A stretch of 64,000 nucleotides of DNA from Hyaloraphidium curvatum (Eukaryota > Monoblepharomycota > Hyaloraphidiomycetes > Hyaloraphidiales > Hyaloraphidiaceae). The position numbers and the translations under genes are program-made. Shown here piece by piece: positions 3,626 through 64,000 of this stretch; positions within the stretch are counted from its first letter, which is position 1; each line of letters starts with the position of its first letter. Where the stretch lies: the NCBI GenBank assembly GCA_025558095.1, contig JAIVFI010000023.1, positions 248,001 to 312,000 on the forward strand. Direction: 5' to 3'. The notes beneath the pieces were generated by a model, which saw only the letters and a list, made by a program, of their open reading frames with translations, did no database searches and was not told the origin of the DNA.

Positions 3626-6600
3626 TCATAGAATCTCATCGAAAACGTTTTTCAGCACCGGCTGCCCCCGGCTCCGCGCATGCAGCCGGGACAGCGCCAT
3701 CTCGCGCTGCTTCTCAAACCGAGCATCCTCGGTCACGACGGGGACCACGCCACTCGGGCCGGTGTGCGTCGGTGTCTTGACGTTGGGCGAGGAGTTTTCC
3801 TTGTCGGGGGGTCGGCCCGTCGCCCCCGTCCGCTGCGGGGACGCATGCTCCACGAACGAGTGCATCGCGGGAGCCCCGGGCGGAAGGTCCAATATCTGAT
3901 GCGAGTTTTCGATGAGATAAAGAAGCGCGAAAATGCCGGTAGTATCAACCCACCCAGTCCCGACCGGAAAGAAAAGAGAAAAAGTCCTGGAACAGGGCTG
4001 TCGAGCCGAGCGTGGACCGGCTCCCCAGAATCAGCAGCTTCTGCCGCGCGCGCGTGACGGCCACGTTGACGCGACGCCAGTCACGGAGAAGGTCGCCGAC
4101 GTTGTTCTTGGCGTTGGACCGCACCAGCGAGATGATGATGCAGTCCTTGTCCCGGCCCTGGTACTTGTCGACAGTGTTGATTTCTAGGCCGCGCCGCCGC
4201 CGGAGCCGGTGATTGATGAGCTTCAGCTGCGAGCGGTAGGGAGAAATGACGCCGATGGATCCTTCCTCGATGCCGCAGGCCAGAAGCGCCTCGGCGATCT
4301 GGAGCGTGCCATCGCGTCAGTAGAGCCAGAACGGCTTGAGAAAGGGGAGCGAACCTGGAAAACGAGATCCGCTTCGACCTCGTTCTGCACAAGATCCCCG
4401 TGTCTGGCCTCGGTGGCAGGAACGGCATCCGTGTCAAGGAAGACAACCTTGTTTCTGCATGTCCGAGTCAGTCCGACGCTAGCAGCACACTACACGCCGA
4501 AAGACTCACTTGGGACTCAGCACGTGCTCCAACCAGCACGAAGAACCCTTTTCACCCTCCTGGCTGGGAAACCTCCTGCCCGAGCCAGGGCAGGAGGACG
4601 CGAGGGGATGCAAGTCCGCGACCCGATCGAGCCTCGGCACGTGCAAGGAGCCCTGCGCGACATCCTCGGTCCCGCAACGCAGCCGATGGTTGTAGATGAG
4701 GAAGTTGGATACAGACATGATGTCGCGGTTCATGCGGTACTGGTACTGCAGGTTGCACATCGCCTGCGGATGCGCTTCCGAAAGGCGCTTGAAGAGGCTT
4801 TCGCTGAGGCCCTCGGCCTCCGGATTTCGAATCTGCAAATCCACTTAAGCAGCTGGAGAGGGTGAAGGAGGCGAATTACCCACCACGGGAGGGAGCTGAT
4901 AGTGGTCTCCGACCAGGATGAAGGTATCTGCGTAGCGCAGCGGCCCCAGGCATGCCGGAAGGGTTATCTGCGACGCTTCGTCGACGATGCAGTAGTCGAA
5001 ACGCCGGGCGGTGAAGACGCCGCTGCCATGCATTGCCCGGTTAGGGCATGCGCTGTATGCAACACCAGACTGAACGCACTGTGTGATTGAAAGGCAGGTC
5101 GCGCCGACGACAGAGACCGATTCGTAAAACTCCCTGACGTCCCCAACCGTGCGGAAGGAGCCGTCGTAGTTGGGCGTGTGTTCCAAGACCGCGGGATGCA
5201 CCTGTCCAAGGGGTAAGCGTTTTCAACCTCGTACTTCAGCCGACGCCTTGCCTTGTCCCGGTTTCCAATGCGCGCAAAGCGCACACCCGATTCCTTCAGC
5301 TTGATAAGCACATTGTCCACCGCAGAATGCGTGTGCGATGTCAAAAAAACGGACTTGCCCTTGCCGACCAGGGCTTTGATGATTGTGGCAATCGTAGTCG
5401 TCTTGCCGGTGCCCGGCATGCCCAGAATGAGGGCATAATCGACCGCTGCTCGGAAAGTCAGGCAGCAATCGCGACGGCCAGCAGGACTCATCACGCACCG
5501 CTTGTGACTTTCTTCAGGGCCTCTCGCTGGTCCGGGTTCAACTCGTCCAGGAGCTCCCGCGGTGCCATGTCGTCAAGATCAACATTGGGCAGGAAGCGCG
5601 GCGCCCTAAGATCCACGACCAGCTCCCTCCTCTTGTGGTCGCCGTTGGAAACGAAAAGCTGGACGAGGTTGTTGCGCAGCGTGCCCATGGCTCCCTGCAT
5701 CTCGTCCTTGTCGATCCGGTACATGACCGGTTCCGCACCTCCGGCATTGCCGGCCAGCTTCTTGCCCGTTCCGCCCTCCACGTTCTCGAAGGCCGCGATG
5801 CCTTCGATGTCCTGGTTGTCAAGCGCGGAGAAATGCTCGGCTCGACCACGGTTGCCGGTCAGCGGATGGTCCAATGCGAGCGTGATTCGGCGGGTCGAGA
5901 TTTCGATGACGAAGCCGAGGCCCAGGGCGTACTGGCCGGCCTCTGTCGACACGACGACAGGGTCGCCGACGACGAACTGCGATTGAAGAAGGTTCTGCTG
6001 GCTTCCGCTCGCTTGGCTGGCGCCGGATCCGACTTCAAAGACGCAGCGGTAGCGGCTCACAGCTCCGACAATCTTGCCCCTGTCCGTTTCGCCTCCGACC
6101 AAGCGCATGTTGGGAAGACACCTGGCCGAGGGGACGAGATGAGCCCAAGTCGCGCCACCAAGCCGTGAACTACAAACCTGCCGAACTTGGCGCGCTCAGC
6201 GCTGTTGAGGTTCCAAATCTCTCGCCGATATCGTAGAGCATCCCCTTCCTCCAGGTTGATGAGCTGTTCCCACGTTTTGAAGAAACTGTCGTGCAGCGGA
6301 GTCATGTCCTTGGTCTTGTCTTGGAAGATCAGCCCGAGCCCGCTGCTGGCATCCGTGCCTTTCTCGAGAGCCTGCTGCGCCGTTAGGGGTCTCGCATGGA
6401 AACCGTGCATGGGAGCTCACCTTGTGGTAGACGGTGCATGCATCGATCGCGAAGCACCTTTGGCACTTCCGCACGTCTTGCAGCATGGGAGGCAGTTTCT
6501 TGGACTGGAGCCAGGAGGCCATCTCGTTCCGGCCCATGATTATCGACCTGAGCTCGTTGCGCGCTTTGGCGACCCTTGTCGTGTCGCCGCTCTTTGCGTA

Positions 6601-8954
6601 ATAGAGGACCCCGGAGTCGACGTCGAAACCTACAAGACGGTCAGATCTGTGAGCACCATCGAGAACACGAACTCACCGTAGCGATCCGTCATGAGCAGGG
6701 TGTACATCATGGTCTGTGCCAGATGGCTGGCCTGGTTGGACGCACCCCCGGCCTTGATCTCGAGCGGTGCCACAAAGGTGTCGGCGAGAAGCTTGGGCGC
6801 TTTCGTAACGCGGATGCACACCGAGGCGTCGATCTTGCCCTTGATGCCGAACATAGGGGACCAAATGTTCTCTTCGATGTCCAGCACCTTCCAGATCGAG
6901 AACGCTTCGGTGTGCTTCGACTTCCACGTTTGAGCAGGCTTGACAATCGGGGGACGCTGGAAAGGCGGGGACAATCAGCCTGTGGCAATCGTGTTCAATT
7001 GCACGCCGCACCGGGAAGTCGGTCAGGTACGTGCCGGCCCATTCCTTGTACGACTGCGTGAGCTGCGCCAGGTGCGCGGTCGCGGCATCCTCGCTCTGAC
7101 CCAGGAAGTAGAGCTGCTCGATCTTGTCCGCGACGACACGGTCAGTCTCCCTCGAGAGGAAATCATCCGAGTAGTCCGCCGCTCGCAGCGAGGTCTGAAT
7201 GATCTCGTGCATCATTGTGCCAAAGAGGGCGGCGACGTTGGAATCCCCGGCCCGCTTGATGCGGTCGTCGATGACGGCTTTGCGCATGCAATTTACGACT
7301 TCGGCAATCTGCGTCGAGCTGATCAGGACGTCCGGATGCAGAATCAGAAAGTTCTTGCTGTCGTTGACGACGAACTTGAGGACTTTCGAGTCGTAGCTGG
7401 GCTCGGGATCTCCGACAACGTTGATGAAATCGCCTGCGATCACAAGTCAAGAAACCAGGCAGTAAGGAGGCTGTGGCCGCTCACCAATGCCGACAGGGCT
7501 CGAGACCCAAGACTCGCGCAGCACAACGGTTGCCTCCTGACTCTCGGTCTCGTCAAACACACGCAGTATCTAGGTGTTTCGGGAAAGGCTTAAATCGCCC
7601 CACAAGCAGTCCGAGCAGTGGCTGCTCACAATATCGGAATTCCGGAACTCGCCCGCCCCATGGCTTTCGAGCACAAGGAATCGGCGAAACTTGAAAGTCT
7701 GCGAGGCATTAGCCTTGAGCTCGCCGACCGGAAATCGGGCGAACCTTTCGCGTGGGTAGCTTCTCAATGTCCTCCGCGAGCTCGGCCTCGAGATCCATGT
7801 TGGCAAGGTCGATGTCAAAGTCGAAATCAAACTCCTCGGGCGCGGCTTGCTTCTTGTCTGGCGATATCCCCTTGGCAGCGGAAGACGATCGAATGTCGGG
7901 AATCCAGGAAGTTGAGGCCGAACGCTCAAACGGACTCCGCGTCGTCTTCTTGGCCGATCGCACTGGGCTCGTTGGGACCGACGCACGTTTCGGCGTGCTG
8001 GTGAGCAGCTTCTGCGCGCGCGAAATGATGTCCGACAGCTTCGAAGCTCCCGCGCCGCCGTCCGATGGCGCTTCCTCGGGCGATTGGTTCGCCCAGTGCT
8101 GCCGCTTGGGCCGTTTGGCGCCGGCAGATTCCGGCTTCCCGGCAAAGAGATTGTCCAAGCTCAAGAAACGCTTCAGTCCGGAGCGCTTTGACGGCGTAGG
8201 GCCTGTCGCATCGACTTCGACGTCCGCATTTGGCGGACTCGGCCCGCCGCGGCTCCCTTCCTCTGTCGACGCAGCCTGCGTGGCTGGATCGCGACACGGC
8301 GTAAGGAAAAGATCAGCCAATTGCAGAGCTCGTCTCACCGGCCGTCGCCCTTATCCTGCTGGACATTTCGCGCCGCAGCTTCAGCGATGTAGGACTCGTC
8401 TTCCAGAACACGCCCGGCTTCGCCAGACCGCCGAAAGAGAGCTCTCCCAGGGGCGAGTTGGGAACAGGGAGCTCCTGCATCGCAGCCGCTGTTGACGCGG
8501 AGCGGGTGCCCGTGGGGTCCCTTTCCAGCGGAGACAGCGTCATGAGGGCGAGGGGTGGACGCCTGTCAGTGGGCTGCTCGGCATGCCCCAGCGGTAGTCC
8601 GTCCCTCGTTGGCGAAGCAGACACGGCAATGCGTCCAGCTGGTCCCAATCCCACAGATCCGAGTGCTTCCCGAGTCCCCACATTGCCTCCGCCCCGGGGT
8701 GGAGACGCCGCGGGCGGACCGGCCACTGTTCCGGGATCTTGGCGGCCGCCATGCCCCGCAACTACGTCCGAAGGCAGGGCATTGACATGAGCAGGCGGCC
8801 GCAAGAAGTTTGCCAACGACGTTTGGCCCTTGAGGCCGCCCTCGCGGGCAGAGCGCTGCGACGGTTCAGACGGCGTGGCCGCCACGAAGGCGCGGCTCCG
8901 GCTTACCTTCCGGCCGCTCGGAGCGGCGCCGCTCATGCTAATCACCGCATACAA
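3626..8954 (-). CDS. DNA2: DNA replication ATP-dependent helicase/nuclease DNA2
   Basis: DNA2 cuts and unwinds 5' flaps during Okazaki-fragment maturation and resects DNA ends. The gene has about 12 exons. Exon 1 (8339-8954) and exon 2 (starting 8283) encode a disordered tail with a PIP-box-like QTSLANFL at residues 44-51. The RecB-type nuclease core follows: [16 protein letters not shown], the first Fe-S cysteine in VNCMRKAV, metal-binding GKIDASV (near 6830) and APLEIKAG (near 6760). The remaining Fe-S cysteines are in [16 protein letters not shown] (near 6460). The SF1B helicase has Walker [11 protein letters not shown] (near 5410), DEAS (near 4975), [10 protein letters not shown] (near 4900) and motif [16 protein letters not shown] (near 4040). 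The C-terminus contains DKENSSPN, a possible KEN box. An alternative start is the Met at 8936. All catalytic elements are present. Confidence 0.93.
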
Positions 8955-48654: not shown

Positions 48655-49170
48655 TCACCACTTTGCCTTTCGCCGTATTCTGTCCAGGATGGTTGCCTTT
48701 CGCACCATGCTGGCGTGTTCAAAGGCCCTGTCCTGCCGCGTGACGTGCGCCTTGCGCTGCGGGTGTTCCCGCCCCAGCGGCGCCAGCTGCATCACCACCG
48801 TCGGCGGCACGTCGAATTTCTTCGCCAGCTTGGTCGCTGTCCACGACACAGCGTCCTCCAGCCGCATCTGCCGCATTTTGTCGACCTCCTCGCGCGACAG
48901 CCGCTTCGTGTACGAGAAGCGGCGGCCCCAGCGGGTGGGCAGCGGCGGCGGCAGCTCAGCCAGGGGTGCGGGTGCGGGGTTCCTGTGGATGAAGAGCGAT
49001 CCGTCGTCGAGCTCGTGGCGCGGCGTGTTCGGGGGGATGTCGCGCGAGTAGTGCTTCGCGCGCGCCCATCGCGGGGCGGCGCGGTCCCGAAGCGGTGCCG
49101 CGCTCCGGGCGAGCGCGCAGAGGCCGCCAACGGGCCGCGCGAGGCCCAGGCGGGGGAGCAGAGTGGCCAT
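48655..49170 (-). CDS. MRPL20: Mitochondrial large-subunit ribosomal protein mL58 (MRPL20)
   Basis: 171 residues, intronless. The Arg-rich N-terminus (LARPVGGLCALARSAAPLRD) is a mitochondrial targeting sequence. The family core is PPPLPTRWGRRFSYTKRLS, then SREEVDKMRQMRLEDAVSWT, TATKLAKKFDVPPTVVMQLA and a basic end (RKATILDRIRRKAKW). The protein belongs to the fungal MRP-L20 family, which supports a fungal host. Its ATG lies only 84 bp downstream of the Fanzor stop on the same strand. Confidence 0.88.
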   Translation of the reverse strand: MATLLPRLGLARPVGGLCALARSAAPLRDRAAPRWARAKHYSRDIPPNTPRHELDDGSLFIHRNPAPAPLAELPPPLPTRWGRRFSYTKRLSREEVDKMRQMRLEDAVSWTATKLAKKFDVPPTVVMQLAPLGREHPQRKAHVTRQDRAFEHASMVRKATILDRIRRKAKW

Positions 49171-49206
49171 TTCGACTTTGCTGGTGTTCTACTACTACTC
49201 AAGAAT

Positions 49207-49220
49207 GCGACTAACGTCGC
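49207..49220. other. Perfect short hairpin just 3' of the Fanzor stop
   Basis: gcgac-taac-gtcgc forms a 5-bp stem with a 4-base loop, 34 bp after the Fanzor stop and 37 bp before the mL58 start. Guide (omega) RNAs of this family are usually encoded at the 3' end of the nuclease gene, so it could be part of one; a chance hairpin or a 3' UTR element is equally possible. Confidence 0.3.
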
Positions 49221-49253
49221 GAGGCTTACAGCCACTCTAACTAAAACCCCCAC

Positions 49254-52200
49254 TCACTCGACCTCAACGAAAAACCCCTGAGGCCTGTCACCGTTGTTGA
49301 GGATGGTAAACAAGAAGATCCAGAGGATGTTGAACGCTGCGCTGATGTCCCTGCTCCACATCACGTCGCAGAGCTCGCAGTCTGTAACTATAGGTCAGCT
49401 CATCCTCTCTTTCCCGCGGCGGACATACTCACATTTAACACCCCAGATCGTCTTGTTGTTCTGCAGCAACACGCACTCCCTCCCCTTGGCCTGCTTGAGC
49501 ACGGTGATGTGGCACTCCCTGCACATCCGCGAGGTTCGGAACTCGCGGACGAACGAGAGGCACAGATCCTTGCGCCAAGCCGGCAGGTGTTGGTTCTTGT
49601 GCGGGTCTTTGCCTTCCTCCTCGAGGCGCCGAAGAGATTTGACGAGCTGCGCACGAATTGATCGTTAGTGATCTCAATGAATGTTTCCAGTTCCCACGTA
49701 CCTGACGGTTCGGAGTGGGAGCCCTTCCCCGGATGTTGGTCGAAAAATTCGCGTCGCCGTATGGAAGTACGGTCCCAACATTGCTCTGAAAAGAGATCCA
49801 CTCCTTGCCGTCCTCGCCACGGATAATGCCGATCACGCCCGGCGTGCCCACTTGCTTGCCGCCTCCAGGATCATACGGCTCGACAAGCACGTTGGGCGCA
49901 AAGTAGACCTGAGCGATCGTGGCCATCGTGTGGTCTCCCCGGCGCTTGCTTGTCATGCGCAGCTGCCTGTTGGATCCCGTGGTTGAGCATGGCATTGGAC
50001 GGCAGTTGTCAAAAGCTCACCGTTCACGGTAGCGTCCGTAGTGATCTACCGATCGAGCGTCAGAACGTCGTCAGGATTCAACGAAGAGGATTCGCTCGAC
50101 CCACCCATAAGCCCGGGGAGCGTGCGCAGCATGCAGACTGCGTGCCTCTCGAACTCCTCGGGGTCCGCGGTCCGGGGCGTCGGCAGCTTCGACGACCACT
50201 CCTCGACGGAACAAGAGCGCGTGACAAAGTCCTTTTTCTCCGGATCCCAAAAGCAGGCCTCCTGTCACGATGTGGGAAGTTCAGAGATCGATTCAGGCCA
50301 CATCCCGCGCAATGGTGCTGACCTTCAGGACCCCAGCCTCCTTCCGCCACCCCTCGCGGCGCTTGTTGTTCCGCGGGATGCCCTTCGAACGCCTCACATA
50401 GTCGCTCGGACACATCCTCTCCAGCTCGTAACGCGCCGTGCCCGGCAGCATCCCAAGCTTCCTCCAGATCTCGTCGGCCTCCTCCTGGGTCTTGCCGGCG
50501 ACCCTGATAAACTTGGCGCGGCGCTGCTCGAGCAGCTCCTCGCACTGCTGCTCGGTGAGGTCGCAGGGGAGCACCTCGCCGGGGTCCAGGCGGCGCCGTC
50601 GCTGCCGCTGCTTTTCGGGCGACAAGTTGCCCATGATGGACTCGATCGACGAAAGCGACTGCTGCTTCCGCTTTGCCTCTGCGGGGTCCTTGGCCGACGG
50701 GTACTTGTACTGGCGGGTGTAGAACTTGTTGTTGTGCACCCGCGGCTCGATGTCCATCTCCTTGGCGGGGATGAGGTCCCACTTGACGATCCGCCCGTTG
50801 TCGAAGGTGTACGAGAACGTCCACTTGAAACGCCGGCCGTCGGCAAAGATCTGTGTCACTGCAGTGTTGAAGGGGTTTGGGACCAGCTTGCTCCCGGGCC
50901 GCCGCGGGTCGTCGAGCTGCAGCTGCGCCATCCTGCGAATTGCGTTGAACTGCGCCTCGGAGATGATCGCCACGGAGGTGGTAATGGCCTTGTTTCCCGG
51001 ATCCGTCGCGGGAATGAAAGGCTCCCGAATGAGGTCGTCGAATTCGAGGAGGTCCTTTGGGAGCGACTCGAGGATCCGTTCTGAACGGGGGATCAGATCA
51101 CTGTGAGGCCGCTCGAGCTCGCTGCACTCACTAGAGAGAACGCCGAACTCTTTCATCTCCTCCGCCTCCAGCTCCTCCTCGCGCAGACGTTGCTGCTGCG
51201 CAAAGTCCCGCTTCTGCTGGTCACTCAGCGGCCCTCCGGCCCTCTTCTTGGCCTCTTCCTTCTCCTCGTTCAGCAGCTTTTCCGCCGACTTTTTGACCCA
51301 TTCCACTCGCGTCATGACGAAACGGAGCTCCACGCCGTTCGACTGCACCCCGTTGATGTGGGTGATGGTCGGAGTGCCGCGCACGACACATCCGCGAAGC
51401 AGATGACTGAAGTCAGAAAGATCAAATATCCATCCGAGGTAGAAGTCGCGGTCGGCTACGAACGCCTTCCTGGCCGCGGAGACCGAGGACGATCGCGTGG
51501 GGTCGAGCTTGAGTCTGTCGGCACGAAACTGCGTTAGACGACAAAGGCGGCGGCGCGGGAACGAGCGCACCGGCAAAGCAGGTCCGAGATGGCAGAAACT
51601 TCCCGGAAGTAGAAACCAAAGCGGTGCGACACGAGCGGGGTGAGCTGCGGAATCTTGATCAAGCGCAGAGGGCGCTTCGGCCGCGAAGGTGGCGCAGGAG
51701 CCGTCCCGGATGGCTTGGCGGCCGTGGAGGCCTCCGCGGCTGGAGCGGCAGCGGGTTCGGCGGCCGCCGACGACTTTGCAAGGTTCCTTTTCGGGCCAGG
51801 CGGAGGTCCAGGGGTGCGTGCTGCGGCGCCAGCAGACTTGGCGGCGAGGCGCTCGCTGCGTTTGCGAGTGCTCTTCCCCAGGTTCTCCATGAACTCGAAC
51901 TCGTCAAAGGGGCCGCCGCCGCCCGCGTCCTGCGAATCAACCGGCACAGACGTGCCTGCTGGACCCATGTCCTCGCCGGCAATCACACGCGGCGAGACCC
52001 GCGGTTGGCCGTGGGCCTGTTCGGTGGCCGTTGCCGCGGCGGACCCTGCGGCAAGAGCTTCCGACAGACCGCCCTCCGTCGCCGTTGGCTGAGGCTTCCG
52101 AGCCTTGCGGTACTCGTCGAAGTCCTTCTTGTACTGCACCAGCGCCGGCAAGCGGGCTTTGTTGACGTCCATCAGCGCCTTGATGACGGCGGTGCGCGCG

Positions 52201-52824
52201 GGGTGCACGACGTTCCACGAGACGTCGAACTTGGACTTGGTGCGGCGATTTCCTCCGGCATCCTGTGGCGCGGGTGCCGCGGCGTTGGCTGGCGGATTAG
52301 CGCCGCCGCCAGCGGCCGCAGCCTCCCCATCTCCGTCCTCGGCCTCTGTCTCCTCTTCCTCCAAGTCCTCCATCTCCTCATCCTCCGCGTCTTCGGCATC
52401 CTCTGCTCCCTCCTGTTCATCAGCATCCGCCACCGCGCCTTCGACGGCTTCCTGGGATTGGCGATGGGCGTGAGAGTGTGGAGGGGAACGTCGGAACAAA
52501 GCGAAAGCGAACCTCTGCCTTTTTCATCCGCTTCGTTGGAACCCAGCGCGGAACGATCTGGCCCCGGTCCGCCAGCTCGCGGACCGCGAGATGTTGCTCG
52601 AGGTAGTCCGGCGCCGCCTCCAGCATGTCGAGGTATGAATACAGCGGTTGCCTGAAGCCGTCCGAGATTCCGCGCCTTGCTGCGGTGTGCGCATCCTCGA
52701 AATTCTTCCGATCGTCGCGGTAGTTTGCCTGTAGGGTCTGCAGAAGGCAGCTGATGAGGCCTTGGCCGCGGATCGGAATGCAGCAAGCTGTACTTGCCTC
52801 CCGGTGCTCCTGATCGGTGATCAT
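49254..52824 (-). CDS. Fanzor-type RNA-guided DNA endonuclease (eukaryotic TnpB homologue)
   Basis: Seven exons (52513-52824, 51600-52451, 50323-51528, 50050-50261, 49702-49966, 49433-49646, 49254-49381) join in phase at every splice to 1,062 residues. Residues 1-390 are helical, then acidic and Ala/Pro-rich. Family landmarks follow in order: FYLGWIFDLSDF and HINGVQSNGVELRFVM (equivalent of the Fanzor TDGVSV segment, near 447), RuvC-I in IPATDPGNKAITT (Asp564), NNKFYTRQYKYPS (matching the reY-H segment), VLPYGDANFS with RGRAPTPN, then REFRTSRMCREC (Glu984; Cys991, 994), and YCELCDVMWSRDISAAFNI (Cys1022, 1025; RuvC-III Asp1032). The start Met directly follows a stop codon of the upstream gene, so the true N-terminus is not certain. 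All catalytic residues appear intact. Confidence 0.85.
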
Positions 52825-55800
52825 CTAAAGAAGCTCGTCGTCCGAAAGCTTCTCCCAGTCCGCTCGAAACTCCGCCTGCCGAAGAACGGGTCACGCACGG
52901 CCCAAAGAACTCCGTCCCGAGCGCAGCCACCCACCGCGAGGGTCTTGAACTGCTCGATGGTCTCCGGAGTTCGACTGCCAGGCTCTTCAAAGAAAGAGAC
53001 GGCTTGCTCCTCGATCAGATGCTCGATGACGACGCGGCGCAAGGGCCACGGTGGCACGGGCAGGTACTGCGGCCTCGGCATTAGCGTTACCGTTGGCCGC
53101 GTCGAGCGCAAACCTACCATCATCTTGGCCACTCCCTCCAGTTGCTGGCGCAGCTCCGCCAGCTTTTCTTCCCCGCCCAGACGTTCGAGGACAAAGCTTC
53201 GGATCCGCTCAGCCTCGACCACCTGGTTGTCCGTGAAGACGCGTCGGCCTGTTGCAGTGCCAGCCGCGGCCTGCGCCGCAGGTTCCGCGAGGTCCCCCTC
53301 CGTCTGGTCCGCCGCGGCCTCGGCCTCGAGCTCCACCTCGTCCTCCTTGTCCTCGGCCGGTATCCGCCGCTTCTTCCTCTTCCCCGCCCTGCCGCTCGCC
53401 CCCGTGGCCTCGGCCCCGGATCCCGTGGTGCCGGCCGCCCCGCCGGCGTCGGTGGCTCTGGAGCCGACCTTTGCCTTGGCCAGGAGGAAGGCGGCACCGA
53501 GTTCCAGTTGGTGAGCCGTGAGGATCATCGAGTCCCAAAGGCAGTCCCAAATCCTCATGGATATGTGGTTCTGCGCCTTCGGCACGAAAAGGATAGCGCC
53601 GTCGGCGGTCCGCGCATCCTGGACCTTGGCGCGGATCAAGGTGCGAATATTCTTAGCCGTCTCCCAGACGACCACTCGTTTGGCATCCTTGACCAAATCG
53701 CGGACGACGGAGTCGATCACCTGCACGAAGACATGCGTCAAAGACGACGGATACCGGGAATGCGAGAATGAGCTCACAGAGCCAGACAGATGAGGTAAGT
53801 ACGACTTGCGGTCGTCCTTTCTCAGCGAGGGCAGAAACTGCTCAATCACGGTCTTGAACATGGCCTCGGCCGTCGCTCTGCGCTCGGCTGCGAAGTCGCC
53901 CGACTCGAGGCCAGCCCCGGAACGAAACGTGTCCAATCGCTTTGCGGTTTCAAACTGCAGACGGCTGGCGACTGACAGAGTGTGGTTCGGGTGAGCAGTA
54001 CTTACCGCCGCACCCAGCCGCAAGGCTTACCCATTGTCGCCATCCGCTTTACCGTTGAAAGATCAAGCACGTATGTCTCATCCGCGCTCCATCTACGCTG
54101 GAACATGCCGACCGCGAGACACAGCTCCTTGCGGAGTTTTTCCGCGTAGGTCTCGGCCTCGAATGCGTGCACAAGAATGTGGCGGAGGTGATCGTGGACC
54201 GCTGAGTTCACGGGTTTGCCGTGGGCCGTGTGAGTGATCTGTGCGAGCCACGATGGGTCAGGAAGAAGCATCCATGCAGATATTCCGACGGACCTTGGCC
54301 TCGTGCGACTTGCTGTCCTTGCCGCCGCGGATCTGGAGGTTGACGAACCGCCGGACCTTCTCGGAGCAGAAGGCGCGGTGCCTCGTGTTCTTGGCGATCG
54401 GAGCCTTCGAGGCCCCGCAGACGGTGCAGGCGCCGTCCTCGGTCCAGCACTCGGACCCGGACGACGGCGGGGCAGGACCACCGCGTTCCCCACGTCCGCC
54501 GGTATCTCGCGCAGTCCGTTCGGGGGTCGCCGGGGCGGAGGCAGAGGGCGGGGGCAGGTCCGCCGGAGCTTGCTGCTCCTCCAAAGGTGCCGGTTCCGTC
54601 GGTGTCGCCTGGCGTTGCGTGGTCGATGCAGCACCGGCCGTGTCCGGGATCGTGCGGCCGGCTTGAGAGACGGGCTTTACATCCGGCGCGTCGAGTACAA
54701 CGCCGAAGTCCACGCTTTCCGAGGCGTCCGAGAACCAGCCTGGCAGGTCCGTTAGTTGGATTCGCAACCACGATGCGCTCATTTGCCTACCGAATGATTG
54801 GGCAATCTGCCGCGCCCGAAGCCAAGCTTCTGCGTCATACAGAGCCGGAAACGCGCGTGCTTCCGGCGAGATTCCCTTCTTGCACGCAAACGTCGTCGTG
54901 ACTCGCGTGCCGAGGATAGACCTGAGCCATATGAGAGTGAGCACATGTTGCCTGCGCGAAACAGGAGACCCACCAGTTGTTGGTTCGCATCCAGTCGACG
55001 CTGTAGCCAGCGCGGATCGGCGCCGTCATCATCTCGGTCATGGATCCGAAGCCAATGATGACGTCCTGCTCCTTCAACTCCACTCCCTGGTGTCCGAGTC
55101 CCTTCCTCCATGGCTCCACGTTCTGGTTGAAGAACACGTCGGGCACCTTGAGCCTGATCTTGTCCGCGACGCTCCGATCCGTGGCAACCCAGTAGTGGTT
55201 CCGGGCGTTGTGCAGCTTCAGCGCAGCCTCCGGCTCGTGCGGCATCGCCAGCCGCGAGTTCTTGACGAGCTCGCCCGCCAAGGGGCTATCGCACAGGCTG
55301 CCGCCCGCATCGGGTTCAGATGAACGCCTGCAGATGCGCAGATCCACTCACTGGCACGCATGCGTCACCTCCACCTTCCCGCCGAACTCAATACCGCAGT
55401 GGATCCCGCCGCGGTCCGCGATGGAAAGTATAAGAGCGACGACGTCGCCCGGGACGGGCAGGTCCTGCAGGATTTCGCTGAAGGAGGTCCTCGGGCGGCG
55501 GAGGACGAAGGAAGCGGGTTGCTCGCTGTCGCGGCGGGAATGTGTCAGTTGCGGCTTCACTTTGGTTCGACCGGCCCTCCACCCACGCGTCGAGATCGAT
55601 GCCCTGGGCCATCATCACGTGCGCGACGCGGTCGACCGTTCTCCTCTCCTCGTCGTCGGCGGCGAGTGCCGAGAAGGTGAATAACAAATCCCGCAACGTT
55701 CGGAAATCTCGCCAACCGTACGGCCGCAGGGCATGGCGTCCGGGCTTTGCTGCGTCCGACGGCGATACGGCGACCTTCAAGGGCCGCAGAGAACGGGCTT

Positions 55801-58800
55801 GAAAGATGGGGAGGGTACGTAGGTCCGCGTCGGGGGATTGATGATACGGGAGGTGAGAAGTCGGGTCGAAGTCGTCCTGCACGATGGTGTCGTGTCAGCT
55901 TGCATGATGGCGAGCTGTCCCGGCGTCAACTCACGGAGTAGTCGAGCATTTCACCCTTCCAGCGGAGGTGCCAGATCCAGCACCACGCCCGCCTCCGCTC
56001 GTTTCCGCCCCTCGGCAGGAAGCTGACGACCTCGTTGAGCTTGTTGACCTTGGTCTCGGAGACGAGCAGGCGCTTGGCGGCCTCGAACGGCTGGCCGAGT
56101 CCGGGAGCACCGTCACCCCACGGTCCTTTGGACAGCAGTTGCCAGAGACCCGGCGCCGGCGGGGACCGCGGCTCGAAGAGCGCCGGCCGTTGGTGCGGGC
56201 GGTCCCGGCCGTGTTGGGGCTTGGAGTCCACCTCGATGGCCTCAGGCGGCTCGGAGCCCGTGGCGAAGCGATAGAAGCTCGTCGCTAGCTCCGCAGCCGG
56301 AATGGTATCGAGAATCTGCCGGACGCTCGGGATCGGCAGCCCGGGGACATGGCCGCCCAGAGGCTGGTGGGAATGATCAGCGTCGCCCAGTTGCGTGCCG
56401 CGAACGGTGTCACTCACGTAGGTGAAGGCGGGCGCTGCCGTGGCACCGCGGTCGACGTCCATCTGCACGCGACGCTGCGGCGTTCCTGGCGCAGGTTGCG
56501 GTTGACCTGTGGCCGAGACGACAGCGTCAGCGGCAATGCAGGAGACATGGAGGCCGAATGGCTCGCCTTCCACGGCAACGCGCTTTGCCGCCGGGGACGC
56601 GGCGCCTGGCGTCGGTTTCGGGTGCGCCGGCGATTTCCCCTTGACCGGCGTTTCACCGGTCGACATCCTGGCGTCCGCCTGCTGCTTGCGCTCCTCGTTC
56701 TTGCGGGCTTGCTTGGCGGAAGGGAGGCGACGTTGCTGGGGTGCCGCGTCAGCACATGGAGGAAAAGGCGTCGGGCATTGCTCGGAACCCACGTCGGACT
56801 TCCGGGGAGGTTGCGGCGGCACGGAGGTTATGGAGTAAGCCCCCGGCTGTCCAGGGAGCTTTGTGGTCTTCCTCTCCGCGATCCCGCCCTGGCCGATTTC
56901 GATCTTGGTGCGGGGCCCGGGAAGGTGGCCGCTGGGCGGGTTGTTGAGGTCGGGAGGTTTGTCGGGGGAGCCGACTGCGCGGGCGGCATCGTCGTAGCGG
57001 TGATACTGCGAGGGCGGGCGAGTCAGGGGTGGCATCGACCGGATGCAGCCGGCCGAGTACCAGTCGGAGGAATCGGGAAAAGTCCGTGTCTTCGTTCCGG
57101 AAGACGCGCTCGAGGCGGGTACGCTCGTTCCCTTGAAAGAACGTGGGTGCCTCGGGAAATGTCACCAACTCAAGGCACGGATGGATGCCAGCGGGGTTAA
57201 TCATCCACGAGGCGTAGATGCGGTGATACGCCGACGTGATCGCCTCCCAGCCCCGCGAAACGAACTCCTCCGCCTGCGTTCCCTCCAACCCCTCCACACG
57301 ACCATACCGATCTGCGAGGAGCTTTGCCGCGGCCTTTGCGGCGGCCTCGTCGACCTTGGGGTAGACGCTCGTGAGGCAACGGTACACGAAGCCCTGGACG
57401 GCGCCCATGGGGGCTTCCGAGATCGTTGGCGCGGGAGCCGGGGGAACGTAGTCGGCGGGAGGGTTCTGCGTGGTAGAGGTGAGATGCGCACACGGCTCCG
57501 CGCCGAACCGCTGCGGACCTTGGTGAAGGCGAGGGAAAGAACCGAGTGGTGTTCCTTGTTACCCTTGATGAGGTTCAGGACGCTCCGGAGCGGCCCCGTA
57601 TCCTCCGCGCGGAGGACCGCAGTCTTCTGGATCAGGCTGTACATCCTGTCACAGGCTTGGGCTGGCGATCGAGTCGAAGTTGCCAATACGTGCCGGTACA
57701 GGCGAAATGCCGCGCCGTACGAGCCGCAGCACATCACGACAGCCCATGAGAAACTGTTGATGGCCGCAACGTTCTTAGCCGGCGCCACCATCATCTTGAG
57801 CTTCTCGACGTCGGAGCGCAGTTCGGCGGGGACGTCCTGCTGGCGGAGGTATGCCGGCCGAATCTCGGCCGTCTGCCCCGTGACCGTCTCCCACCAAGGT
57901 CCTCCATCGGCGGCCGAGACGACGGTGCGGTCGGCGGGGTCCACGACGGCGTTCGGGTCCGGCGTGGCGTTCTGCAGTTGAGGACGGCGTGGTCATGCCG
58001 CGCCCGTGGACCACGGCAAAAGCATGCGCGAGACCCACCGCGCGCACTCGAAGGGAAAACATGGATTCGTCGAAGGAGCTGAACACCGCGCCAAAGGCCG
58101 TGAGCTGCGAATAAAAGTGCGCCTGCGGCGCGAGGTTGTGACGGAGAATCGCGTCCTTCACGGCCCTAAGCGGCTGCGGGCCCGGCGGGTGGGGGAGCAG
58201 GAATTCGCGGAATGCCGCGTATTCTCCGAAAAGCCTCACTATGGCCCTGCCGATCGCGAGGGCCTTTCCCGCGATCTCCTTGTCCCTCTTGGTCTTGGGG
58301 TCCGCAGATGGCGTGCCTCGAACCAACAGCACCCCAAGGAATCCGGCGTCGGCGGCCTCCTGCGGTCCGAGGGCCGTAGCTGCGGAGATCATAGGGCGTT
58401 CGGGTACTGCTCGAAGGCTCGGCCGCGGCTGGTCCGCAAGTGGGTCCCCCGCAACGTCGTCGCCGGCCGTCGGTGCCCCACCGCGCCCGCGGATGCGCAC
58501 GTGGAGCACCGTGCCGTCCGACGGCACCTCGTCGGGGTGAACGAGGCGGCCGGCCGACGTTTCGAGGCGGAAGTCGTCCACGCCGAAGTCATCTGCACCA
58601 AACGCGTCCGCTACGATCCACTGCGAGGCTTTAGGTCAGCAACATGCCGGACTGGACAGATCGGCCACGATCCTTACCTGTACGTCGAGGTAGGTGGCAG
58701 AGGCGGGGAGCGCGATTCGGTAAGTGTCGCTCGGGCCAAAGGAAACCATGATGCACTTGTCGGGACGCGCGGAGTCCGTGCCGAAGCCGTGGATCCCCGA

Positions 58801-61104
58801 CGGGATCGGTTGGTCCGCGGGCTGCCGCAGCAGCGCTGCCAGCTCCTTGAGGGTGCCGGGGGGGAGGTGAGGCAGGAACCGGGTACGGGACTTGTGGTGC
58901 GTTGAGGGTTTGAAGTGCGGGTCTGGGATGGCATAGTGGCTCCCGTGTGCAAACACGATGCACTCGATCACTGCGGAGGAAGCGTCGCCGTGAGATCTGG
59001 CAATACCTGGAGCATCGGGAACGCCCACCAGTCGCGATCTCGGAGAGCCGGACTTGAGGAAGCGGGGGGAGTGGTCGTCCCTGGAACCATCTCGGCTGTC
59101 CGCTGGACAAATGGCGTGGTGGCAGGGGCTGTCCGCTGGCGGCGACGAAATGCTTGACCTCGTCGGCTGGAAGCGCTGCGTCAGAACTCTGCGAGCCAAA
59201 CACAGTGCAGCGGCGCTCACGGGTGGGGTATCCTCCGCGCTCGTTTCCAAGGTCCCGCGCCGCTTTTGCCACCAGGGCAGGGACCAGGAGCTCGGGACCG
59301 ACCACTGCGGGCGGCCTGGCGTAGCGGTAAGTCCTCCAGTCGAGTCGCACCAGCCGGAATCGCGTGGCCGCGATGATCCATTTGTGGCGCTCCTCGTAGT
59401 CCAGCAAAGTGACGGGGCTTAAGGGCCGGATTGCCGGCGACGGCGTTGCCGGCATCCGAGCCAGGTAGTCCGCGGCGGCGTCGGCCTTGGCTTGCTCCTC
59501 GGCGTCCTCCCCTGACGCAGCGGCCCGCTTCCGCCGAGCTTTTTCGTTGGCTTCCTTCAGCGCCGCGGCGGCACGGGCCCGCGCCTCCACCCGAGCTTCC
59601 TCCAGCGCCGCCAACCGGTCCACCTCCGCGTCGACGGCCGCCACCGCGCCGTCCACGTCCTCCGGGCCGTCCAGCACCGCTTGCGCCCGGGCAGCGGCTG
59701 CCCTGGCCTTGGCGGCTTTGGAGGCCGCAACGTCGGCTTGCCGCCTGGCCCTACCCGCGGCCGCGATCGACGCGCGAAACTTCTCCTCGGCTGCACGGGC
59801 CTTCCGCCATTCGCGCTCCTCCGTCCAGGACTTCTCCTCCAGGCACCGCCCGAGGAGGACCCGGATCCTTTCTCGGGCCTCTTCGTCGGCGGAGGCTGCT
59901 TCGGCTTCGGCTTCCATGATTGCGTCTGCCTTCTCCTCCTCGACGCGGGCCGAAGTCTGGATCGCGTATGCCTAGATATGCGGATGCACGCCGGATTGAG
60001 AACCACGCCCGAGGCTGCAATGTCGAAGGGGACGTACCCGTGCCCGCTTGCAGCACCACCTGTCCACGTTGACCTCGCTCTGCGCCTGCCGCGCCTTGTC
60101 CTGCAGGTAAGCGGCCCAGCCGTCCCAAAAAGCAGCATCGTCCTCGGCTTCCCATACGGCCCGACGGGCGGAATCCGAAAGCAGCGCCTCTGCCTTGCGG
60201 CGGCAGCGCGCGACACCTTGCTTCACCGCATCCAGCGTCGAGCCTGTGCACGCGCCCTTGCCGAGCCCTTTACGAACGGTGAGTCGGGCCTAAAGCCATC
60301 GCGCAGGAGTGCACTACCTCTTGCCTGCTCCTCCGCCTGCCTCCTCGCCGGCGCAAAGACAGTCCGCAGGTCCTTCTTGATTCGCCGGCCACCCTCCAGT
60401 CCAGCAACGGAATCCTGCATCACCTTTGCTTGCTGCTGCATCCGCACAAAGTCTCTGTCCTGCTTGAGGCGGTCGGACGGAGCGGCGCTGGAATCGCGAG
60501 ACATGGCGGGCGTCTTGGGGCTGACCGACGTGCGCGGCGCCTGCTGCTCGACGACGAACTCGCCCGAGCGGGATCTGATGCTGCCGACCAGTTCCGCAGA
60601 TCCGTCCTCCGTTGCTCCAATCCACGCCTGGCGGAGGAAAGGGCAGGTTGGATGTGCGCCAGCGTCGACGACGTTCCGGTGCCACGTACCGCTTTGCGGT
60701 TCGAAGCCGGCGCCCTCTTCCCCTTGACCTGCTCCATCTTGAACACCCGCGCGACCTGATGCGGGTGTTTGCATGAGCTGGCCGCCGGAGCCGCGGTGCT
60801 CGGGGGTGAAACCCACCTTGTCCTCGTTGTTCGACCTGAACCCGATTAGCTGCTCGTCATCGGTGCCTCCGAGCACCGTCGCCTTGATGGTGGTCGGCTT
60901 GCTCTGTCGGATGGCAAAGGATCGCGAAGGGTCAGCTTCTCTGCCCCGCTCGTGCGACGGCCCCGCCGCCCCGTAGATCTCCGGTGCGGAAGCCCGTGAT
61001 GCCCCCACCTTTGCCTTTCCTGGCTCGTTCAACGCCCGCCGGACGGATACGCTGGCCGCCTGGCCGCCGGGCGGGCCCCGCAGCGACGCCGAAGGCTGCG
61101 CCAT
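52825..61104 (-). CDS. Large multi-exon gene with internal ubiquitin-like domain, function unknown
   Basis: A chain of exons with good splice sites on the Fanzor strand; the exact model is incomplete. In order: a Ser/Arg-rich start (61104, MAQPSASLRGPP), a basic helical part (60700-60230), an Ala/Glu/Arg coiled coil (59917-59450; EEKSWTEEREWRKARAAEEK), then a ubiquitin-like domain (58755-58477). Next come helical segments (58300-57100; GKALAIGRAIVRLFGEYAAF), a Pro-rich disordered region (57035-56150), more helical parts, and a CTVCGASKA...HRAFC zinc-like motif near 54400. Further on are MATMVASRLQFETAKRLDTF (joined across an intron near 54000) and a basic/acidic linker GKRKKRRIPAEDKEDEVE (near 53360). 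It ends DWEKLSDDELL at 52825, touching the Fanzor ATG. The 61104 start is a guess. It could be an element-encoded partner, or the N-terminal half of one giant Fanzor protein. Confidence 0.45.
58477..58755 (-). other. Ubiquitin-like domain within the large upstream gene
   Basis: After removing an intron (donor gtaaggat after DVQ, acceptor ctcgcag before WIVADAF) the reading is 74 residues with a ubiquitin beta-grasp pattern. Strand 1 is CIMVSFG, strand 2 TYRIALPASAT, the helix is YLDVQWIVADAFG, strand 3 DDFRLETSAGRLV, and the last strand TVLHVRIRGRGG. Ubiquitin has 76 residues and ends LHLVLRLRGG. The Gly-Gly is followed by further protein, so it is internal. Confidence 0.55.
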
Positions 61105-64000
61105 GGGGGCGCACGGGTTCTCGAAACAGGCGCGGCCGCGCGTCCAAACGACCCGTAGCCGACGAAGAATGGCAATAGAACGCTCCTTGACCTACGCGGA
61201 GCCGGCGGCGGTCCCGACGAGGCCGCGCCGAGTCGGTGGTCGGTCCGCTAAAGACGCGTCTGCCGCACAGCCGCCCTCCACGCGCCAAGTCAAAGGGCGC
61301 GGCCACTGCAAACCACACGAGCCAAAACCGAGCACGTCTCGGTCCCGAATTCAGCGAAACGCGTGTTTCCGAAGCCGCTTAGGCCTTTGCAGCCTGCGCC
61401 GGCCTGCCTCAGCCCGTCGGAGTTTGCCGAGCATCTCCCGTTCCCTACGCACGACGCTCTGGAACCCGAGATCCCGATGTTATCCCTGGCCCGAGCGCGC
61501 CGGATGGCCGTTCCTGCCGTGGCTGAGTGACCGGGACCCCCCTGGTCACGTCGACCGGGGGTAGCCCCGATCCGCCGACCGCGCCCCGCGCTCTACCTTC
61601 GCCGCGCGACACACCGGTGCTCCTCGGTGCCCATTTCACTCCTTTGCCTGCGAGCTCCCTGGCCGTGTTCCTTTCCACGGCGACTTCCGCCGGCGAGGCA
61701 AAGCGTCGTCCTCGCGGGATCCGAGGACGCTTCCCTTGCTCCCGACCCAAAGCGGTTTCCGCGACGAACACTGTGAAGAGGCTCCGTTGGATGGTCTCGG
61801 CAAGTTTGGATGAGAGGTAGCCGCGGCAGCCGAACTGTGCCGCGCGGCGGGGCAGCGCGCAACGCCGCCTGCGTGCGACGGCCGCCGCCGCCGCTGCGCC
61901 GGCAGCGGCAGAGCAAACTGTGCCCGCGATGCGCTGTCTTTTGCCCGCCGTGTTGGCCGGACGGTGCGGCCGCCGGATGGCCGTGGTGTTCGTCGGCGAG
62001 TCCGGCGCCCTTTTCCGCGCGCGCCAGTTCATCTCGGGTCGGGCGCCACCGATCGGAGACTGGAGACTTTCCAACGCGAAGAATGTTCACGGCGCCTTGG
62101 CACGCGCGGTGGGAGCGCGGTGGGATGGGCGAAAGGTTCGGCCGACCATCGTCTGGCGACCGCGCTCGCCCGCGGTTGATTCTTTCCGCGATCCAGGTCG
62201 ACTGTGCGCGGATTCATCCTCCTTTCCCCCCGATCGTCGTCACCGGACCTGATTACGTGACCTCGATAGCGCGGGCCCGTGGACTTGGCGTCTGGAGAGC
62301 CGGACGCTCGAAGTTGCTGGACGAGTGTGAAGTGGAGCCTATTGCTGTGTAGGAAGGCCTCCGATCGCCCATCGGTTCGCCGTTCTAGCTTTCCACGTCC
62401 ATCATCCGCCGAGATTGGCCGGCTTCGGCGCGTTCCGGGTACTGCGGGACCGTCCTCGTGTGTGAGCTGCTGCGCCTGCGAAAGAATCCGCGATACGACA
62501 AAGATTTTGTTCCATCGCCAACCGTCGCGCATCCCACAACCCCTGGCCTCTCGCGACGTCTTTGAGCCCCGGAAAGCGTGGTTCTGCCCAAGATCAGCTC
62601 CCTGCTTGCGCTGCTGGTCGCCGTCTGGGGCTGCTCTGCAGCCGCATCGCGACACGCGGGAACATGGTCTGGGGCGTGGCATCACGGCACGGCGTCGCAC
62701 CCCTCATGGCGGCAGCCCGGGACCACGTCGAACAGGACCTTGTGCTTGCCATCTGCCTTGAGCACGCACGAGACGTCCTAACTGGCGTCGAACCGAGGGA
62801 TCAGAATACCCGAAGCACGCCATTGCCGAGCAGGCACCGAGGCGCGGCGATCGCCTCGACCACTTCAGTGGTCTTCATCCCGCGCGAGTGTACGCAGAGC
62901 AAGTTATACACCTCTACAGCGGTTTCTTGCCCTTCAAGCTCGAGAAACCCCCACAGGATTGATGATGCAGGTGCTTGACCGTTTTGGCTGGCAGCATTCC
63001 CTGCCCTCATCCACCGCCAACTCAATCGATACATCCATTCCGACATCCCCGATATAATATAGCACCCAAAAACTCGTGATAACCGGGCGGACATGGTCGG
63101 GAACGTGCTGTACTTTGCCCAGTCGTTTGTTCCATCACAGGGAGTCGCGCATCTGGACGATCCCTGCAGATACAAGCACTAGCAGTACAAGCAGTACACG
63201 CTTGCTTGTTGTCATCGCCCTGACTTGCAGAATGGATCTCAATCTCCATAGCTTTTGCCGTTCGGCCGGGCAACTCCGACCCTCCCCGAAGCATGGAGTA
63301 CGTACTTCCATGCTGGGTAGATCTACAATGGCGATAGTCAGCCAAAATGCTGTTACAGACATGCTGTATCTTTTTCGGGGCCCGTGGTGGCCGCAGCTTC
63401 TCACTTTCGGCTTGTCAAGTCGTTTCCGGTCCAACTCGCGCAATTCTAGCCGCCTGCGCGCCCCTCGGCAGAAGCGGGTTCCGCTTCAGCAAACTGCATT
63501 GTGCTGCGGTCATCCTGCGTTGGTAACCGAATCTGCATTGCATTTCCCTCGCCATGCTGCTTCATGCGTCACGCATTTTGCCACACGGCTCGAACCCGTT
63601 CCTGTCTGCGCCGTTACGTGCATCAGACCTGGACAAGGCCTCCCGATGCTCGATTCTGCTGTACCGTTATGTGGACGGTCCACCTCAATGGAGGGAATGA
63701 TGGCAGGTGTCATGATCAGGCGAGGAAAACTCAAGTTGTGGTTCAGAAATCCGAGCTACCGTCCCATCTATGCGTCTTGCTTGGTGCTGCACGCCTCCTT
63801 CGATTGCGTTGTAGGCACTTGGTTGATGATTTCTTCACGTTCAATGCGGCTGGAAGCAAACTCTGGGGCATGTCAAGACTCTGGTAACGTTGCCTACGAG
63901 AGGCGGAATTGGAGGCCATGAATACGGCACTTAACGGCAAGGAAGCCAGGAATCAGTCCCAACATGGATCATAATGACGCATAAAAATGGCTTTTTGAAC
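61105..64000. other. Gene-poor flank
   Basis: I recognise no gene in this 2.9 kb. The part up to about 62,300 is GC-rich with overlapping Arg-rich open frames on both strands. From about 62,800 onward it is distinctly AT-richer. A weak minus-strand candidate exon at about 62,801-62,965 (SSILWGFLELEGQETAVEVY) could join to another ending near 62,690, but no family was recognised. The region may include the 5' part of the large gene, its promoter, or the right edge of a mobile unit. Confidence 0.4.

Follow-up and report, generated by a model that had tools for sequence, protein, structure and literature searches.

Does the Fanzor-like gene on the minus strand of a 64,000-nucleotide stretch of the Hyaloraphidium curvatum genome (C23:248001-312000 of a 31.9 Mb assembly in 55 contigs; hereafter the window) encode a complete nuclease of about 1,000 residues, as an earlier note had proposed, or is it part of something larger? 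Fanzors, eukaryotic proteins related to the RNA-guided DNA nucleases of CRISPR systems, have been sought as compact RNA-guided nucleases. From computational evidence we judge it reasonably probable that the conserved core in the window is the C-terminal Fanzor part of a very large, intron-rich gene within a low-copy mobile unit, interrupted in the window by an in-frame TAG and open in the model of a sister copy on contig C15. H. curvatum is a chytrid-grade, early-branching fungus, placed by the NCBI taxonomy in Fungi, Monoblepharomycota. The Pol epsilon gene that adjoins the Fanzor locus has its first named relatives in Mortierella, Jimgerdemannia and other early-diverging fungi (43-45% identity); this kinship, together with the taxonomic placement, confirms that the genome is fungal.

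Fanzor identity of the conserved core

Besides the window gene, the genome has a full paralogue on C15 and a fragment on C12; more distant relatives occur on C3 and at two places on C2 (C2a and C2b). The RuvC triad is complete in the window (D505, E915 and D963 of a 993-residue model) and in C15 (D2737, E3159 and D3207). Its RuvC-I aspartate lies in a DPG context (TDPGNK; DPN in C2a and C2b), and the rearranged glutamate stands six residues before the first CxxC (EFRTSRMC), as it also does in C2a and C2b. TS and a C4 finger (CREC...CELC) are followed five residues on by RD, within the 5-50 range; the active-site expression used here (glutamate before CxxC, C4 finger, RD) is that of PMC10711439.

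Among the genome contigs, the cut-off of PF07282 (26.3 bits) was passed at C5 and at both places on C2 (C2a 32.3 bits, C2b 28.0 bits). C2b and C2a match the window protein at 8.3e-14 and 5.5e-12, respectively, and when the window and C15 were joined in one profile and C2a and C2b in another, hhalign aligned the two over 241 columns with 98.3% probability (E 2.3e-14). In an alignment of all four cores the landmarks line up, with identities to the window of 76% for C15 and of 22 and 25% for C2a and C2b. The profile of this alignment found Guillardia theta Fanzor1 (GtFz1, 9cer) as its best match in PDB (3.5e-5, 168 positions), followed by LaTranC, a transposase chain and the TnpB-like L79 (6.7e-4 to 2.1e-3); 13 of the 18 listed matches, none better than 0.064, were ribosomal zinc proteins (S29/uS14). 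The earlier note had recognized a Fanzor in a fungal genome from five ordered landmarks, and its assignment holds, although the support is indirect: the active-site signature, the hhalign result, the PF07282 scores of C2a and C2b, and the GtFz1 match. The landmarks occur in the order it gave, at residues 450, 550, 918, 971 and 1019 of a 1,052-residue re-spliced version of its model. This order is beyond chance, since the paralogue at C15:375253-378752 matches the re-spliced model exon for exon, the ratio of nonsynonymous to synonymous substitution rates (Ka/Ks) over the core is 0.20 (Ks 0.88), PF07282 matches at 4.1e-4 and the core aligns to C2a and C2b.

Several results weigh against this identification. 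The distance from the RuvC-I aspartate to [TS][TS] is 412 residues in the window and 424 in the C15 model, outside the spacing of Bao and Jurka, D-X(125,275)-[TS][TS] (PMC3627910). C2a (323) and C2b (317) also exceed this range yet pass the PF07282 cut-off, and we therefore read the long spacing as an insertion and not as an exclusion. The match of the spliced window protein to PF07282 (4.1e-4), from a profile search of the kind that the earlier note had suggested, falls short of the cut-off at 20.9 bits, as does that of C15 (24.9 bits, 2.3e-5). Against PDB, the profile of the window and C15 found no Fanzor and six unrelated matches at 0.45 or worse, the deposited protein P0074 alone found no matches, and the profile of C2a and C2b found LaTranC first (1.1e-3) and GtFz1 only at 0.054. 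These controls indicate that the GtFz1 match depends on joining both pairs.

The two CxxC pairs are 27 residues apart in the window and C15 (14 in C2a and C2b), beyond the 12-18 of an expression that was written for TnpBs (PMC10711439). At the position of the WED-domain TDG motif, SNG in the window and TNG in C15 stand opposite YDG/SDG in C2a/C2b. With the raw, unspliced exons PF07282 reached only 0.095 and ranked after a cytochrome model (0.0028), itself below its cut-off. The re-spliced sequence alone had no Fanzor match in PDB, and none of 8,000 scored candidates in a protein database reached E ≤ 1e-3, in part because a length filter removed entries of 456 and 413 residues. For the core alignment 7,991 candidates of limited length were scored, and two short pieces were all that reached E ≤ 0.01. 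NCBIfam held no match for the window protein, and P0074 scored E 0.03-0.24 against its TnpB/Cas12f models; the core alignment, scanned over viral contigs, gave 12 stretches with the pattern and no relatives. Fanzor identity is thus supported by homology to C2a and C2b and by the active-site signature, and the window core is best described as a Fanzor1-like protein that is enlarged and divergent and departs from two published spacings.

One very large predicted gene

Homology between the window and C15 exceeds the gene outlined by the earlier note: collinear DNA matches occur piecewise between 49,187 and 62,554, and minus-strand protein blocks, mostly in one frame, run from about 58.3 down to 49.3 kb. 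We modelled both copies with our own spliced-gene dynamic programme, which allowed GT/GC-AG introns of 40-159 bases and was run at four pairs of start/stop penalties; codon usage was trained on the note's exons and Pol epsilon and then retrained on the programme's first output. The C15 coding part came out as one gene at three of the four settings (-8/-6, -4/-2 and -1/0), and its model at -1/0 (366784-378755) comprises 31 exons and 3,236 residues without an internal stop. For the window, the -8/-6 setting produced a single model from 62032 to 49254 in which the TAG is skipped, and the -4/-2 and -1/0 settings produced 2,262 and 993 codons, split by the TAG and starting at ATG 61104. Identical position and phase in C15 were found for 20 of the 32 window introns, and three more lay within six columns. 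Ka/Ks between the copies, computed with gapped columns left out, is low in all seven segments (0.40, 0.31, 0.20, 0.30, 0.31, 0.48 and 0.20; Ks 0.31-2.2), and the N-terminal 1,879 residues find matches only at C15 and C23, both beside the Fanzor.

On the strength of the single-frame blocks, the three concordant settings, the shared introns, the low Ka/Ks and an N-terminus matched only together with the Fanzor, the locus is most likely one large predicted gene, which would begin at ATG 61104 or possibly 62032 and end with the stop codon at 49254, with ~3,250 codons and ~30 predicted introns. It would be read as a single transcript, and of the ~3,250 residues of its protein the Fanzor probably takes up the final ~680. 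The earlier note was right that the protein is larger than usual and probably understated the difference, its model being the C-terminal part of this likely product.

A number of observations count against a single gene of this size. The most permissive setting (+1/+1) splits both copies into many models, and the start shifts with the setting (61104 or 62032 in the window, 366784 or 365851 in C15). Nine of the 32 window introns lack a C15 counterpart; one of these, before EACFW, is absent from the C15 model and present in the deposited C15 protein. One exon of the C15 model is only two bases long, the splice coincidences are not independent of each other in homologous DNA, and several of the Ks estimates are above 1 and cannot be relied on. 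Above 58.5 kb DNA identity is 89% and matches occur in every frame, which leaves protein blocks there with little force as evidence. The deposited C15 protein model has only 456 residues.

The locus could alternatively consist of two or more adjacent genes on the same strand, an unrelated upstream gene (~61.1-55 kb) and a Fanzor of ~1,500-1,900 residues starting near a finger-like exon at 54.3-54.7 kb. We regard this as unlikely, though deserving of attention: no known domain joins the two parts, the deposited C15 model is a fragment, and identity changes abruptly from 89% at 58.5-62.5 kb to 65-76% below. Set against it are the single C15 model at three of four settings, including -1/0, introns conserved over the whole length, an N-terminal part that is matched only beside a Fanzor, and an intron near 55.3 kb that by eye is common to both copies. 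C15 residues 1-2100, homologous to the upstream part in the window, contain no Pfam family above cut-off. Window positions 58466-62554 are 89% identical to C15, against 65-76% for pieces that align elsewhere in the unit, a difference that points to gene conversion or to an exchange of the 5' part.

An in-frame stop codon in the window copy

Read codon by codon, ...WEKLSDDELL-stop-MITDQEHRE in the window corresponds to ...LQGLTDDQLLNEIADEQAQE in C15, where AAC takes the place of the TAG (52827-52825). The TAG directly precedes the ATG (52824) at which the earlier note had begun what it called an intact gene; that position is GAG in C15, and of the two copies only the window has the ATG. A GC-AG intron (52738-52797) follows the TAG site in both copies. 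The note's N-terminal residues (MITDQEHREASTACCIPIRGQ...) run on into this intron, which the note had translated, and conserved sequence goes on upstream of them. Since C15 reads on through and shares the intron, we regard that N-terminus as artefactual and, apart from the possible splice described below, the window copy as interrupted. TAG also ends the neighbouring Pol epsilon open reading frame and is therefore a stop codon in this genome. On the C15 comparison, with homology and conserved exons upstream, we reject the note's model as a whole gene. That model, with six introns and 1,062 residues from 52824 to 49254 on the minus strand, did keep a single frame, as did the re-spliced version with seven introns and 1,052 residues. 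Some of its internal splices were not borne out: the tail reads ...WGVKYCELC..., and a small exon giving HYGRYRE had been overlooked, both as in the deposited proteins P0074 and P0075. The corrected open frame from ATG 52824 has 10 exons and 1,020 residues.

The window copy most likely yields no full-length product, unless the TAG is removed by splicing. Two points speak against such a loss. The CTTTAG at the TAG is usable as acceptor of an in-frame 110-nucleotide intron (52825-52934), and the strictest setting (-8/-6) and our first scripted model both bypassed the TAG in this way; the TAG could also be an assembly error. A near-full-length product made by this splice, at the cost of ~17 residues, nonetheless seems improbable, because the two other settings favour a shorter intron and the stop, and because the skipped stretch, AEFRADWEKLSDDELL, has a C15 counterpart.

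Might the whole family instead be decaying in this genome, with no copy active as a nuclease? The TAG, the truncation of the copies at C12 and C29 and the presence of only four 3' ends would fit such a relic. We find it hard to reconcile with a C15 model without internal stop, a core Ka/Ks of 0.20 at Ks 0.88 and triads intact in both the window and C15, and think it correspondingly unlikely. Quite improbable, finally, is a working short product of 1,020 residues translated from ATG 52824. Its frame is open from the TAG to the stop and includes every catalytic residue, with full RuvC and finger; C15, however, reads through with GAG at the ATG position, exons are conserved upstream, and the ATG occurs in the window copy only.

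A low-copy repeated unit with a sharp 3' end

The unit that carries the gene ends sharply at 49187, 67 bp past the Fanzor stop. Read on the coding strand, the window, C15 and C12 are near-identical over the ~50 bases that lead up to ...GTAGTAGTAGAA and have unrelated flanks; C29 carries the 3' end of the unit alone. A 32-base pattern of this end occurs at four genome sites and at none in a reversed control. In all four copies a 14-nucleotide hairpin (GCGAC-GTTA-GTCGC) lies 20 nucleotides from the 3' end, as in elements of the Helitron2 type. Rfam gave no matches on the window at gathering scores, and the hairpin-bearing 3' segment (49187..49253) would be a candidate 3' part of a guide-RNA scaffold.

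The C12 copy has an abrupt start, which corresponds to window position ~50,843. Of its first 144 bases 143 are identical to the window, and over 1,676 columns the identity is 94%. These columns include introns, so the copy did not arise through spliced RNA. Beyond 62,554 the window and C15 carry different repeats. Helitron N-terminal (replication-initiator) domains, PF14214, are found at C2, C35 and C8 and none within the Fanzor unit, which may be a non-autonomous Helitron-type element. By analogy with Fanzor-bearing Helitrons, the exact shared 3' end and the 5'-truncated copies at C12 and C29 suggest a low-copy mobile unit that moved by one-ended transposition, possibly driven in trans. This is weakened by the failure to see, by eye, a target-site duplication at C12 or C29, and to find a clear 5' inverted repeat (ATIR), the upstream region giving only 9-12-mer matches. 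A domesticated host gene without a transposon role, which great size, abundant introns and low copy number might bring to mind, is highly improbable given the sharp 3' end in four unrelated flanks and the 5'-truncated copies, that at C12 matching at 143 of 144 bases.

A possible mode of action

It is general background, also described in PMC10432273 and PMC11423790, that a Fanzor binds RNA from the end of its own element and cuts DNA that matches the guide. By the same scheme, the core encoded here would bind an RNA that covers the last part of its gene together with the hairpin-bearing end of the unit, and the conserved hairpin end, which abuts the gene, is a candidate for the scaffold of that RNA. 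Its guide would be taken from the first flank bases just outside the 3' end. The core would then cut matching sites, and repair would copy the unit back, in line with proposals for TnpB and Fanzor. The ~2,200 residues upstream of the core may have a tethering, recruiting or regulatory role.

Comparison with known Fanzors

The match to GtFz1 runs through the YG, E..TS-CxxC and W.R.. blocks. The window core differs from it in its third catalytic residue (Asp, against Asn in GtFz1 according to PMC11423790), and the match is significant only with both pairs in the profile; the solved GtFz1 chain has 1,100 residues including a maltose-binding-protein fusion. With Spizellomyces punctatus SpuFz1 the window gene shares a D/E/D triad (D383, E541 and D606 in SpuFz1; PMC10432273) and a chytrid-grade fungal host. 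SpuFz1, however, is a single open reading frame of 638 residues in a ~2.1 kb locus with 30-nucleotide inverted repeats, whereas the window gene has ~3,250 codons and about 30 predicted introns, and inverted repeats were not found. Large Fanzor1s have ~800 residues (PMC10711439).

The Helitron2-type Fanzor1 elements CRe-1, -2 and -3 of Chlamydomonas resemble the unit in having introns, copies that are mostly 3'-intact and often 5'-truncated, and a hairpin near the 3' end (PMC3627910). They have 5 or 10 exons, many copies, target-site duplications in many cases and 5' ends that match Helitrons (same source), in contrast to the window unit with its four ends and no target-site duplication seen. 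Two deposited H. curvatum proteins, DFJ74DRAFT_94870 and DFJ74DRAFT_767092, are pieces of the C15 and C12 copies, with 456 and 413 residues, C-terminal only and without the RuvC-I aspartate. The two deposited proteins found for the window family are thus C-terminal pieces only; annotation can leave little of such a gene beyond a short hypothetical protein, and surveys of predicted proteins may miss the remainder. A search of a paper library that lacks most subscription journals found nothing on Hyaloraphidium with Fanzor, and among the titles listed on Fanzor fusion or domain architecture in fungi none dealt with giant Fanzors. If the large gene is real, its core is attached to some 2,500 additional residues, with Ka/Ks low throughout; this would mean that eukaryotic Fanzors have gained extra modules, and the gene would be a natural system in which to study how a Fanzor serves its element.

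Features of the window copy

Table 1. Features of the Fanzor unit in the window and the adjoining host gene, in the order of the minus strand (positions are those of the window).
Feature	Position	Strand	Basis or remark
Collinear homology with C15:365333-378820	49187..62554	-	DNA comparison
Upstream gene part, with 2,262 codons in 24 predicted exons as far as the TAG; ATG at 61104 (or 62032)	52825..61104	-	predicted limits
CxxC...C finger-like exon in upstream part	54294-54739	-	predicted
In-frame TAG within exon (AEFRADWEKLSDDELL, then stop); AAC in C15	52825..52827	-	side-by-side reading of the copies
Exon TLQANYRDDRKNFEDAH...KRMKKAE; upstream bound is the GC-AG intron 52738-52797 common to C15	52513..52737	-	225 nucleotides, same length as C15 exon 375259-375483
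Exon with acidic, low-complexity linker, then start of conserved core (RPKRPLRLIKIPQ...)	51571..52451	-	scripted model
Exon with HINGVQSNGVELRF, opposite YDG/SDG of C2 paralogues	51132..51514	-	core alignment
Exon with RuvC-I TDPGNK (D505), start of large RuvC insertion	50323..51080	-	scripted model and motif check
Exon EACFWDPEKK...SVEEWSSKLPTPRT	50105..50261	-	scripted model, core alignment, deposited proteins
Small exon completing HYGRYRE	50021..50045	-	both copies; identical residues in P0074 and P0075
Exon with RQLRMTSKRRGD...YGDANFSTNIRGRAPTP	49702..49966	-	scripted model and core alignment
Exon with REFRTSRMCREC: rearranged RuvC glutamate (E915), first CxxC	49433..49646	-	scripted model and core alignment
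Last exon: CELC of zinc finger, RuvC-III WSRDISAAFNI (D963 of 993-residue scripted model), stop	49254..49381	-	splice agrees with P0074
3' terminal segment, 67 bp, Fanzor stop to sharp end (...GCGACGTTAGTCGCATTCTTGAGTAGTAGTAGAA, coding strand)	49187..49253	-	common to C15, C12 and C29; unrelated flanks
Host gene, mitochondrial ribosomal protein L20 (MRP-L20)	48655..49170	-	Pfam PF12824, 1.9e-12

The scripted model placed an exon at 52585-52728 instead of the one listed at 52513-52737.

Related loci and neighbouring sequences

The more distant relatives in this genome are also large. C2a (L029 4236-9998, minus strand) is a large Fanzor with a core above the PF07282 cut-off, and upstream in the same frame it has a stretch resembling an OTU protease, GDCLFES ... 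HYDLL, whose Pfam OTU match (E 0.028) is below cut-off and without PDB support; C2b (L030) has a related upstream part without the OTU-like residues. The C5 locus (L031 about 4467-8750, minus strand) gave a 1,264-residue model with an XPG/FEN-like N-terminus (Pfam XPG_I_2, E 0.035-0.043, below cut-off and without PDB support). This N-terminus lies near the stretch that passes the PF07282 cut-off; its match is lost in the spliced model, and the junction is uncertain. At C3 (L028 from 4410 upward and on into L056, minus strand) the distant relative has 1,895 residues in a model that is 5'-open, REYHTSMMCYSC...WNRDVSASLN. Tentatively, and as a matter that we find almost evenly balanced, these models (~1,260-3,240 residues, at least four lineages) may represent a Hyaloraphidium radiation of giant Fanzors in which the core is a C-terminal module, the window family is the largest, and some members perhaps have OTU- or XPG-like upstream parts.

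The ATG of MRP-L20 lies only 16 bp beyond the 3' end of the Fanzor unit. At the other side, positions 62,554-64,000 hold a separate repeat that is distinct from the unit. From 62600 to 64000 it is 97-98% identical to pieces on C5 and 85-98% to pieces on C3, and 79-84% identical to sequences on C40, C26 and C21, with short pieces on C32 and C10. Words resembling VVHG/WSTA recur in the reading frames of L051 (C15:362001-365400), L047 (C5:416501-420500) and L050 (C3:885001-888000), a pattern expected from a short repeated DNA unit.

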